IMG/VR virus record: IMGVR_UViG_3300027692_000009
Span: 1 to 26,827 of that record
DNA from: a virus
Direction: 5' to 3' (one strand)
DNA: 26,827 bases
In this document: in pieces, positions 4,254-11,729 of the stretch
Position numbering within the stretch: position 1 is the first letter of the stretch
Layout of the letters: each line of letters begins with the position of its first letter
Notes under the pieces: generated by a model
The model's input: the letters and a program-made list of their open reading frames with translations, nothing else
Told to the model about the DNA's origin: nothing
The model's database searches: none
Position numbers and translations under genes: made by a program

Positions 4254-4820
4254 TCAGTGAAACGTGGTCACGGGCTCAACGGCAAACCCGCTTTGTACAA
4301 TCTTTTCTAGTTCCGCGATGCGGGCGAGAAGAATCTCACAATTATCACATCGTCGGTTTCGAGCTTGCTGTACTTTTGTGGCCCAACGAATATTTCCTTT
4401 TTCGTAGTGACCATTATTGTCATTACGCTCAAGGGAATAAGCAAACTTAGGTTCAGGGCGAGGGCCAATTTCCGCGAAGAACTCTTCAAAACTCTGAAAT
4501 CGAAACTCGATTCCACGACCACCATAATCCGCAAATTGTTTAGTCTTCGGATTAGTACACCGCTTCTTGGCTGCGTGAAAGGAAGTCCATTCAGGTGTAA
4601 AAGACATGCCGTGGGTAGTGTTTCGAGATTTTGCTAACTCCCGTTGGACGCATCCACAACTAGTGGATTCCCCCGTTCGCATCTTATGACCTAGCACGGG
4701 TTTGATCGTGCCGCAATCGCAAGTACATAGCCAGATGGAATTTCCCCACTTATCTTTTTCCTTAAAACCAGTCACCACCCAACGACCAAAACGCTGCTTT
4801 GACAAATCAATAAATTTCAT
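4254..4820 (-). CDS. Free-standing HNH homing-type endonuclease with zinc/AP2-like N-domain
   Basis: 188 residues. N-terminal part (about 1-60): LSKQRFGRWVV, then CTCDCG and SCGC, the four-cysteine domain common in phage HNH/AP2 nucleases. The middle has PEWTSFHAAKKRC and YGGRGIEF. The catalytic-looking block is YSLERNDNNGHYEKGNIRW near 130-150, followed by an Arg/Asn-rich DNA-binding stretch. A short coiled C-terminus follows. It sits between the capsid gene and the decoration gene with its own promoter (4841-4869) and an AGGAG-like site, which is typical of a mobile free-standing endonuclease invading a structural operon. The target is unknown. The neighbouring capsid gene, with its introns, is the obvious candidate. 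Confidence 0.85.
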   Translation of the reverse strand: MKFIDLSKQRFGRWVVTGFKEKDKWGNSIWLCTCDCGTIKPVLGHKMRTGESTSCGCVQRELAKSRNTTHGMSFTPEWTSFHAAKKRCTNPKTKQFADYGGRGIEFRFQSFEEFFAEIGPRPEPKFAYSLERNDNNGHYEKGNIRWATKVQQARNRRCDNCEILLARIAELEKIVQSGFAVEPVTTFH

Positions 4821-4897: not shown

Positions 4898-5661
4898 TTA
4901 GGAAATCGCAGAAGCTGCGTCAATTTGTCTCTGGCGAATTGTAGTGTCGGGTCCTAGCGACGTGGTGAAATGCACGCGATAGGATGTCCATCCAGGGATC
5001 AACCCTTCAGGATCGGCAACAGTGGGCTCTGCGTTCTGCACAATGTTGCACTCGATGTTACGCCACTCGCCGTCACCAAAGCCCGTGTCGCCCTTGGCTC
5101 CGAGGTTGATGGAGAACACACCATCGCGCCCGAAGATGTAGGTGCGGAGAGCGGTGAGACCAGTGATTCCGCCGTAGTTGGCGGTCTGTGTCACCAGGTT
5201 GGTCTGGTAGAAGTCGACGCCCGTAGAAGGCAGCGTGATGACTTCAGTCAGATCGACCGAGACAAGACTTTCCATCTTCATCTGACCCACGGGGGTGTGC
5301 TTCAGAATGTCGATAGGCGAATCGTTGCTGTTGTCAGCCAACACATCACCCAGAGCGAACGGATGGATTACGCCCGCGAAGCTCTTAGAAGCTTCGTCGA
5401 ACGGACGTACACTGCGGCCCGCCAGCGACTGGACGCTGTTACGGATCTGCGACAAGGACAGAGCGGTGAAGCTCGTAGTCGTTGAAGCAGCCAGAGTGGT
5501 CAGAACAGACGCGTCAATACTGGATGCGCCGTCGCAAGTCGCACGGACGAGAGCAGACAAAGACTCGCCAAGGCGATACGACATTTCGCGAGCAACGTTC
5601 TCAACAGTGTTGTCAATCGCGGTAGCGAGAGACAGCGAAGAGAAGTTTGCGTAATCGGCAT
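4898..5661 (-). CDS. Major capsid protein, exon 3 (C-terminal 254 residues)
   Basis: The frame runs from the intron's 3' splice site at 5661 to the stop at 4898. The first codon (TAT, Tyr) is completed by the last base of exon 2 at 6279. The joined junction reads ATIGEYADYANFSSLSLATA, which restores a continuous coat-protein core. The segment holds the long helix (NTVENVAREMSYRLGESL), the domain around IHPFALGDVLA, and the C-terminal beta-rich region (TYIFGRDGVFSINLG). Together with exons 1 and 2 the product is about 343 residues, which suits an HK97-fold coat of the N4-gp56/P22-like sort. The ATG at 5584 inside exon 3 is only an internal Met. Confidence in family is from pattern and gene order. 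Confidence 0.75.
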
Positions 5662-5763
5662 CAAATGTGTTTAGGAGACCTAGATCACCCTAGGCTCACT
5701 CTGCATGTCGCCATGCAGTTCAGACTCTATCTTTACGGCACGGGAGTGCCGATGCTTGACATA

Positions 5764-6198
5764 TTAGTCGTTGGGGATTTTGCCCGAATTGAGAGCCATA
5801 CACGCCGCATGAAGTTCCGCTCGTCGGGGTGGATTTTCTTGTCCACGCATACGAACCCATTCAAGGGCGATTAACGCCTGCTCTCGCTTGATGATATGAT
5901 AAGGAAGTGTACTAAGAAGAATTTTTTCTATCTTCTCATAGCCGCCAGTGATGAACCATTCATAACACTGTTCCACACTCAGCTTGCCCCTTTGTTTTGG
6001 CCTGAATTCGCCCCCGAAGTACCGCACTAACCAGCGCATTAATTTCATGCTCGTATTAGCAACCGATACTTTTAGGTCGTAACCAAAATAATTTTTGCCC
6101 GTGCTGGTTTTTAAGGTCGTACGTGAAATGCCTATACAGCCCTCAGCGTCTATCGCCATAGCCAAACGTGCCCACTTCGTTTTATCATTAGTCATCAT
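5764..6198 (-). CDS. Intron-encoded LAGLIDADG homing endonuclease
   Basis: 144 residues with one LAGLIDADG-type motif, LAMAIDAEGCIGIS, at about 12-25. The acidic catalytic residue is the Asp/Glu pair, and Gly follows. Downstream are a basic saddle-like strand region (FGYDLKVSVANTS) and helices. A single motif implies a homodimeric enzyme that would cut a near-palindromic site, presumably the intronless capsid junction. It has two adjacent ATGs (6198, 6195), a GGAGGAAA site upstream and its own promoter at 6225-6254. Its last codons lie in the ribozyme core, a common compact arrangement. Confidence 0.85.
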   Translation of the reverse strand: MMTNDKTKWARLAMAIDAEGCIGISRTTLKTSTGKNYFGYDLKVSVANTSMKLMRWLVRYFGGEFRPKQRGKLSVEQCYEWFITGGYEKIEKILLSTLPYHIIKREQALIALEWVRMRGQENPPRRAELHAACMALNSGKIPND

Positions 6199-6224
6199 CT
6201 CAGGTCTTTCCTCCGTCTCTTCTG

Positions 6225-6254
6225 ATACTATCAGACTTTGACGGATATAGTCAA
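6225..6254 (-). promoter_or_regulatory. Promoter of the intron endonuclease
   Basis: Minus strand -35 TTGACT (6249-6254), 18-base spacer, -10 TAGTAT (6225-6230), inside the intron just after P1. It would allow the endonuclease to be made independently of late capsid transcription. Confidence 0.5.
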
Positions 6255-6278
6255 GTTTTTACGGTGAACTAGCAATTA

Positions 6279-6390
6279 ATTCACCGATAGTGGCAGTGGT
6301 TGTCAGTACGCTAACCGACAGAGAAGAACCAACAGTTCCTTCAGTCGTCTGGGTGGTGTTAGCCGCCAGAGGCACGTACATGAACATCTC
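6279..6390 (-). CDS. Major capsid protein, exon 2 (37 codons plus one base)
   Basis: The frame starts GAG ATG TTC ATG and gives EMFMYVPLAANTTQTTEG followed by a Val/Ser/Thr-rich strand to ATIGE, then a single T at 6279 completed by exon 3. Its frame differs from exon 1 by one base and is preceded by an in-frame TAA at 6396-6394, so it cannot simply be a continuation. The sequence is the beta-strand/loop portion expected between the coat N-arm (exon 1) and the helical core (exon 3). An internal start at the Met codons could in theory be used but has no ribosome site. Confidence 0.75.
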
Positions 6391-6433
6391 CAATTAAGTC
6401 AACAACCGCCTATCCAGTACAAGATGTTTATAG
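6391..6433 (-). mobile_element. 43-nt group I intron remnant or minimal intron with intact guide sequence
   Basis: The insertion separates capsid exons 1 and 2 and introduces TAA at 6430-6428. Positions 6420-6414 (GTACTGG) pair with exon end CCAGTAT (6440-6434), with U.G at the boundary: a P1. The adjoining 6428-6421 (AACATCTT) pair with the first 8 bases of exon 2, GAGATGTT (6390-6383): a P10. The insertion ends in G (6391). Removing it joins Tyr52 to Glu in frame. These are exactly the guide features of a group I intron, yet no P3-P8 core fits in 43 nt. Confidence 0.7.
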
Positions 6434-6589
6434 ATACTGGTTACCAGAGTTCACTGGCAGATCAAGCCGCTCGGAGCATGCAACGAACGGGGTTTGTGCC
6501 TTCAAGTTCTCACGGAACTTCTTGTCGTAAAACTTCACCGTGGACTGAGGCAGGTTAGATAACTGGTTACCCGCTGGGGAGAAAGCCAT
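6434..6589 (-). CDS. Major capsid protein, exon 1 (52 residues)
   Basis: The ATG at 6589 is preceded by AGGAAAA. The product starts MAFSPAGNQLSNLPQSTVKF and continues to NSGNQY (residue 52). Unspliced, translation would add one Leu and stop at TAA 6430-6428. The N-arm pattern (SNLPQ, a tyrosine-basic stretch, then an Ala-Gln-Thr-Pro segment) is characteristic of coat proteins with an N4-gp56-like layout. The scaffold-like gene stops 15 bases upstream. The track-independent reading of exons 1-2-3 gives one uninterrupted coat protein only after both insertions are removed. Confidence 0.75.
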
Positions 6590-10770: not shown

Positions 10771-10974
10771 CACCGTTGTTACTGTTAGCACCTAACAGGA
10801 TAAGTCATTTCTGCTTATCTCATGCGGTTGGGTTCCCGCATGGTCGGACTATCGCATCATGATTTTTCATCATGCCCGCTCACTTAGTCTCTCAGCGTCC
10901 CTTTCGGGTTCGCCCTTGTTGGCATTTCAGCGTTCAAGTCAATCAGAGTGGGTTTTACTGGCGCAATACTCTTA
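10771..10974 (-). other. ORF-less group I intron (204 nt) in the portal gene
   Basis: Exon end TGGCGT (10980-10975) pairs with intron GCGCCA, giving a six-pair P1 with U.G at the splice site. The bases just 5' of that guide (ATT) can pair with the first bases of exon 2 (GAT) as a short P10. Conserved core strings are present: GAGACTAAG (R-like) and GCGATAGTCCG (S-like, P7). The intron ends in G at 10771. Its first codon in the exon frame is TAA, so splicing is needed for portal synthesis. At 204 nt it is near the lower size limit for an active group I intron. Confidence 0.85.
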
Positions 10975-11169
10975 ACGCCAGAGGAGATTCCATTGCTTAT
11001 TCAGAATGAAATCACGTGCTGCTTGTGCAGATTGAACAACGATTCCCAAATGTGTAGAAAGGTCACCGTTAATTTCTTTTATCTCGCCAGATTTATTTAA
11101 ATTCTCGCCCGTTATACTGGCGTTAGGGTTACCATCCGCGACTAGTTGATCGTCGATTAACTCTGGCAT
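10975..11169 (-). CDS. Portal protein, exon 1 (65 residues)
   Basis: The ATG at 11169 has GGGAG upstream, inside the end of the GIY-YIG gene. The product starts MPELIDDQLVADGNPNASIT and ends with a helix finishing QWNLLWR at the intron boundary. Unspliced it would stop immediately after Arg65. The segment is the N-terminal helical region of the portal. Joined to exon 2 it gives about 709 residues, within the range of large portals. The 13-base overlap with the endonuclease gene indicates that the endonuclease is inserted exactly in front of this exon. Confidence 0.8.
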
Positions 11170-11729
11170 GCGTTCTCCCGTTCTAGCTTTCGACGAGCGT
11201 GAGCAGCTTTTGCTGCTTTACTCATGTTGCTGCGATGTTCATCGGAAAATGGTCCCATTTTAATCCCCATCTTTGCTCTACTCAACTTCTCTCGGTGCTC
11301 GATAGATTTTGGTTTACCTAATCCAGCCAACCGCATCTTCATTTTGGTCTCTTCGGAATGTTTTCTACCTGCCCATATTGCCGCCAACTTAGCACGATGT
11401 TCCTCGGTAAAAACCCGTTCATACCCGAATGACCCACCGCCCCCCGAAGCGATATTGTACCCGATTTCTTTATTTTGGGTTTCTAGGGTTCGAATAAAGA
11501 ACTGTTCTAATTTATCAGCCTGTTCTTTATCCAACGCTTCGACAAGTAATCGAATTACGAAAGCGTCAGCGCCATACTTCCTAATAGCGTTATAGAGTCG
11601 TGGTTTTCGATCCTCTCCCTTTAACAATGCACGGGTCACGTCGGAGCGAAGATACCTGTCTAAATCTTGACAGGTTTGCCCGATATAAATCTTATCGTTT
11701 TTCAAGTTCGTGACCACGTAGATGTGCAT
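11157..11729 (-). CDS. Free-standing GIY-YIG homing endonuclease with NUMOD3 repeats
   Basis: 190 residues. The catalytic GIY-YIG domain is at 1-90: IYVVTN at 3-8 and IYIGQT at 14-19 form the two signature halves, followed by an Arg (27-31) and an acidic helix. The C-terminal part has three or four NUMOD3-type DNA-binding repeats (TEEHRAKLAAIWAGRKHSEE, SIEHREKLSRAKMG, SDEHRSNMSKAAKAA) in a basic context. The gene lies between terminase and portal exon 1, with its own promoter but a weak ribosome site. Its neighbour carries an ORF-less group I intron, so the pair looks like a collaborative homing unit. Confidence 0.85.
   Translation of the reverse strand: MHIYVVTNLKNDKIYIGQTCQDLDRYLRSDVTRALLKGEDRKPRLYNAIRKYGADAFVIRLLVEALDKEQADKLEQFFIRTLETQNKEIGYNIASGGGGSFGYERVFTEEHRAKLAAIWAGRKHSEETKMKMRLAGLGKPKSIEHREKLSRAKMGIKMGPFSDEHRSNMSKAAKAAHARRKLERENACQS

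Follow-up and report, generated by a model that had tools for sequence, protein, structure and literature searches.

Group I introns are assumed to bring their own ribozyme. In our study, a 26,827-nucleotide (nt) stretch of viral DNA was analyzed (positions 1 to 26,827 of the IMG/VR virus record IMGVR_UViG_3300027692_000009, referred to as the window), in which the coat gene is interrupted by a 617-nt group I intron and, upstream of it, by a 43-nt insertion that could not accommodate a group I core. According to our comparison with related phages, such short insertions, here called mini-introns or minis, would be group I introns without a ribozyme that rely on the core of the next intron for their splicing, and we give this explanation a probability of roughly 0.6.

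In regard to the closest described systems, introns in capsid genes are uncommon yet known, namely in Lactococcus phage Tuc2009 and mycobacteriophage LittleE (PMC3706429). Like the coat gene of the window, both capsid genes hold a full group I intron, and the LittleE intron, like the 617-nt intron, has a putative homing endonuclease inside (PMC3706429). However, Tuc2009 and LittleE have one complete intron each, while in the phages described here up to six insertions were found per coat gene, many of them core-less. In euglenoid chloroplasts, degenerate group II introns known as group III are comparable to the minis themselves, as they are short, have lost most catalytic domains and need outside help (PMC8393795). 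Group III introns are nevertheless group II-derived, while the minis keep a guide and a terminal G and adjoin their presumed helper; their pairings with the upstream exon (P1) and the downstream exon (P10), together with the terminal G, point to group I. Another short insert in a phage gene is the 50-nt coding gap of T4 gene 60, which may descend from a group I intron and may protect against a homing endonuclease (PMC5009743), but this gap is hopped with matched GGA codons, which the minis do not have, and its junctions lack the P1 and P10 pairings found in the minis. Finally, in engineered trans-splicing group I ribozymes the core acts on a separate RNA substrate (PMC6155759). These are designed molecules with the guide in the ribozyme, whereas each mini brings its own guide.

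The 43-nt insertion and its counterparts in related coat genes

The coat gene (6589..4898; all features described here lie on the minus strand) was found to be interrupted twice when an intronless homologue (L001) was used for spliced protein-to-DNA alignment, and the joined exons give a complete protein of 343 amino acids (aa). Exon 1 (6434..6589, codons 1-52) is followed by the mini (6391..6433, after codon 52), exon 2 (6279..6390, 112 nt), the 617-nt intron (5662..6278) and exon 3, which runs through the stop codon (4898..5661). Tunturiibacter phage Tunturi_3, which is a podovirus infecting an acidobacterium (PMC11924767), has an intronless coat gene, and its "major head protein" shares 82% identity with the product of the window gene, compared in a 342-aa version from a first junction estimate that lacked one residue. 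An initial annotation of this DNA had already placed two insertion sites in the coat gene about 110 coding bases apart, which agrees with the 112 nt measured. The second site was indeed present, but it had been taken for just another site, and its size of 43 nt and missing core were overlooked. This core-less insertion is the more novel part of the locus, more so than the 617-nt intron.

The junctions of the mini come from the protein alignment, in which the aligner slightly rewarded a T at the donor and a G at the end of the intron but neither P1 nor P10. Intronless relatives read NQYEMFMY at the 3′ junction, which fixes it at 43 nt and excludes a 46-nt form ending in GGAG. The last 7 nt of exon 1 (CCAGTAT, 6440..6434) and the guide strand GTACTGG (6420..6414) form a P1 of 7 base pairs (bp), CCAGUAU/GUACUGG, with U.G at the splice site. 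Directly abutting it, the intron strand AACATCTT (6428..6421) and the first 8 nt of exon 2, GAGATGTT (6390..6383), form an 8-bp P10, GAGAUGUU/AACAUCUU, and the remaining tail (6413..6391) closes with the terminal G at 6391. A P1 of 7 bp with a P10 of 8 bp was equalled by 0 of 4000 shuffles.

Relatives were gathered by coat-protein scans, an intron-neutral scan with an exon segment and gapped DNA patterns; a scan of a genome collection gave one relative only, and a broad DNA pattern search brought chiefly unrelated DNA. Before counting, the spurious rows L206, L207, L340, L369 and L326 at codon 184 were removed by hand, as was L081, which duplicates the window. Among the related contigs, 46 distinct intron-bearing coat genes were found, containing 41 minis (37 of them distinct) of 32-98 nt at 12 sites and 83 full introns of 180-1202 nt. 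Insertion lengths are bimodal, with none between 98 and 180 nt, and the P7 motif is present in 74 of the 83 full introns versus none of the 41 minis. Given this length, the absence of the P7 motif and the lack of any Rfam match at minis of the window and its relatives, minis are best described as group I substrate-like and not as self-splicing group I introns. Up to six insertions can be present in one coat gene, as at codons 20, 29, 52, 90, 314 and 327 of a 343-codon gene (L164) or at codons 18, 54, 187, 297, 314 and 340 of another (L234), with minis and full introns mixed in both. Other genes compared between these phages have full introns and no minis.

The pairings of the window mini recur throughout this set. 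All 37 distinct minis have a P1 of 5-10 bp contiguous with a P10 of 4-12 bp, and in the 18 minis tested only 0-21 of 4000 shuffles matched the observed pairing (sum of log10 p = -56). Furthermore, P1 shows compensatory changes in the codon-20 mini (AAGUAU/GUACUU versus AAGUUU/GAACUU) and in the codon-314 mini (CCUGGAU/GUCCAGG versus CCCGGAU/GUCCGGG), and P10 in the codon-52 mini (GAGAUGUU/AACAUCUU versus GAAAUGUUU/AAACAUUUU). The contiguous P10 is often weaker in full introns, with a median of 3 versus 6 in minis. All 37 start after T and end in G (34 of them in TG), which is weaker evidence than the pairings, as the aligner slightly favoured both letters. From the guide to the 3′ end, the tails measure 15-80 nt. 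Removal by a protein pathway, in which an endonuclease cuts and an RNA ligase rejoins, could draw on the annotation of two RNA ligases and an RNA 2′-phosphotransferase in the cultured relative Tunturi_3 (L218). We find it hardly credible, as Tunturi_3 has an intronless coat gene, and such a pathway would neither be expected to select for P10, U.G and a terminal G nor need an adjacent group I intron.

An in-frame stop is present in 36 of the 37 distinct minis and the remaining one shifts the frame; therefore, an unspliced mini-bearing gene would give no coat protein. The early stop in most minis and their length, similar to known bypass inserts, would suit translational bypassing, where the ribosome hops over minis left in the RNA, as happens with the 50-nt insert in T4 gene 60 and with the mitochondrial byps. 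This explanation is nevertheless quite improbable. Matched take-off and landing codons were found in 0 of the 20 phase-0 minis, while the other 17 split a codon that hopping could not rejoin. In addition, bypassing would have no use for a terminal G or for the pairing of P10 with the downstream exon, and the T4 insert gave no P1 or P10 in the same test.

The joined frame of mini-bearing coat genes is under purifying selection. The window and L079 differ by 143 synonymous and 12 nonsynonymous codons, and L077 and L208, which have the codon-20 mini in common, by 123 and 12, respectively. Mini sites at codons 20, 22, 31, 52 and 54 are occupied by full introns in other phages. Such common sites, together with the inability of unspliced genes to give coat protein, could also indicate that minis are recent dead intron remnants, the phage genomes being defective or the coat being expressed from another copy. 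We consider this unlikely, as the guide pairings are retained while the tails diverge, selection downstream of the minis is strong, the same minis were found in independent assemblies (L202/L203, L208/L211 and L212/L213), and confinement to the neighbourhood of full introns would not be expected of remnants. A separate observation concerns two contigs, L291 and L048, whose coat coding sequences are 99.6% identical and of which only one has a 567-nt intron at codon 22. The intron may have been gained or lost recently, or the collection may contain a spliced transcript.

Order of the insertions and proposed splicing

For all 41 minis, the next insertion in the gene is a full intron, located 26-120 coding nt further downstream; in no gene is a mini the last insertion, and no two minis are adjacent. 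By comparison, the spacing from a full intron to the next full intron reaches up to 789 nt. When labels were shuffled within genes, the probability of this order was about 2e-12, an overstated value because related genes are treated as independent. Based on the arrangement of insertions, the order rule is the main argument for the downstream intron as a helper in cis, perhaps acting during transcription. Splicing in trans, by a group I ribozyme of an excised intron or of another transcript, has to be considered here, as the minis lack their own core and engineered group I cores do act in trans (PMC6155759). A free ribozyme would, however, be indifferent to order, yet no mini comes last and each has a full intron at most 120 nt downstream, so we regard this possibility as a minor one, though worth keeping in mind.

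We return to minis as ribozyme-free group I introns served by the core of their neighbour. The coat transcript of the window would then contain two group I splicing units and one ribozyme. The 43-nt element would represent the substrate half, made up of a guide that forms P1 and P10 with the two exons, then a short linker and finally the terminal G, and the core of the intron located 112 nt downstream would accept its P1 helix in cis. GTP would attack after the U of the U.G in P1 of the mini, exon 1 would then attack after the terminal G of the mini, placed by P10, and afterwards the downstream core would remove itself. As to the origin of minis, they likely descend from full introns of the same sites whose core disappeared after a further intron was present downstream; core deletion would be a natural origin because five mini sites hold full introns in other phages. 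The more complete formulation, that minis of 32-98 nt are natural, non-autonomous, guide-only group I introns depending in cis on the next downstream ribozyme, that one core splices two introns, that a mini and a full intron form a recurrent unit, and that the mini may keep the target of a homing endonuclease interrupted, is one towards which we lean only slightly.

Several observations weigh against this explanation, starting with the overstated probability of the order. In this set, full introns at codons 54 and 90 always have a mini about 96-120 nt upstream (as in L300, L372, L377 and L330), those at codon 54 being paired with five different mini sites (codons 18, 20, 22, 27 and 31), and a pattern search for mini-free codon-54 full introns returned only mini-carrying contigs. 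Borrowing of a core alone does not explain such constancy. A guess, in line with a proposal for T4 gene 60, is that minis in addition block the site at which the endonuclease of the downstream intron would cut; the benefit, speculatively, would be a target kept interrupted at minimal length. No extra pairing between the tail of a mini and its partner intron, which could act as a recruiting helix, was found above chance. Both the removal of minis by splicing and the role of the neighbouring core as its agent are inferred from sequence. Lastly, the searchable papers, among them few from subscription journals, gave no description of core-less group I introns or of a group I core that splices a second, core-less intron in nature.

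Two further candidate features were set aside. A helix between the exon upstream of P1 and the tail of the mini reaches 8-9 bp in L077, L208 and L214, but it is not general. Loss of P10 in partner introns gave p=1.4e-7 when single introns were counted and p=0.06 by insertion site, and it is not used as support. In several partner introns, P10 is seemingly displaced by 2-3 nt.

The 617-nt intron and other features of the window

On the basis of its pairings and coding content, the 617-nt element can be regarded as an ordinary group I intron with a ribozyme and a LAGLIDADG-type open reading frame (ORF). Spliced alignment places it at 5662..6278, in phase 1, splitting codon 90 of the conserved major head protein. 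The initial annotation had located it correctly, apart from a start that was off by one, as base 6279 is the last exon base and the intron comprises 6278..5662. Its P1 has 8 bp, CGGUGAAU/GUUCACCG, with U.G at the 5′ splice site, and is formed by the exon strand CGGTGAAT (6286..6279) and the guide strand GTTCACCG (6269..6262). The 7-bp form of this helix first described, GGTGAAT/GTTCACC with U.G, occurs a single time in the window and in 0 of 100 dinucleotide shuffles. The core contains P3 (CTTGAC, 6255..6250, and GTCAAG, 5760..5755), P7 (GACTA, 5769..5765, and TAGAGTC, 5729..5723), P8 (CGGCAC, 5751..5746, and GTGCCG, 5741..5736, read by eye) and P9 (CTGCAT, 5718..5713, and ATGCAG, 5706..5701), and the terminal G is at 5662. 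Within the P6 loop lies an ORF of 144 aa (5764..6198), the stop codon of which overlaps P7. Its match to the Pfam family LAGLIDADG_1 (PF00961; E=1.9e-4, 22.7 bits) is slightly below the cut-off of 23.1 bits and is consistent with the LAGLIDADG-type homing endonuclease proposed earlier.

The Rfam group I search, which had been suggested as a check, gave 23.8 bits (E=0.029) for Intron_gpI (RF00028), below the gathering score of 50, and the match places the 5′ half of the model inside the ORF. On related introns the same model reaches only up to 40.8 bits (E=5e-7); therefore, the low score reflects a general model that is weak for these introns. Although this result, read strictly, supplies half of what had been named as speaking against an intron, it is outweighed by covariation. 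Across 20-22 related coat-gene introns, with the helix segments excised by conserved anchor motifs and not by free alignment, compensatory changes were found in P3, P4 and P9, with paired cells amounting to 121/132, 100/100 and 132/132, respectively. P3 occurs as CTTGAC/GTCAAG, TCTTGC/GCAAGA, TTCGAC/GTCGAA and TTTAGC/GCTAAA, and P4 as TCCGT/ACGGA, TCGGT/ACCGA and TCAGT/ACTGA, while P9 is paired in every cell in many sequence forms. P7, represented by the motif AGTCTGA in the 617-nt intron, is near-invariant and thus uninformative for covariation. The core is better documented by P3, P4 and P9 than by the Rfam match, and the joined exons read ATIGEYADY, as had been anticipated, within the full coat protein. 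At the sequence level, P1 and the core helices, the terminal G, the ORF and the exactly restored reading frame all support a group I intron with a putative LAGLIDADG-type endonuclease inside the coat gene.

Elsewhere in the window, the portal gene has its own full-length intron of 204 nt (10974..10771) with a 7-bp P1, a 5-bp P10 and a terminal G, and the listed portal ORF, starting from 10791, omits the first exon. Between the terminase and portal genes lies an apparently free-standing GIY-YIG endonuclease ORF with NUMOD3 repeats (11729..11157). Downstream of the coat gene, an ORF of 188 aa (4820..4254) resembles a free-standing homing endonuclease on visual inspection and has no Pfam match.

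Implications for group I introns and gene annotation

A caution for gene callers is that inserts too small to be recognised can split the coat genes of soil phages, giving as many as seven exons. If the proposed explanation is true, minis would represent a naturally minimal group I substrate, and natural introns of which only a guide is left would parallel, on the group I side, the "group III" introns that degenerated from group II. They would also show a route by which self-splicing introns become dependent on a second RNA, a transition that is often assumed in accounts of how spliceosomal introns arose.
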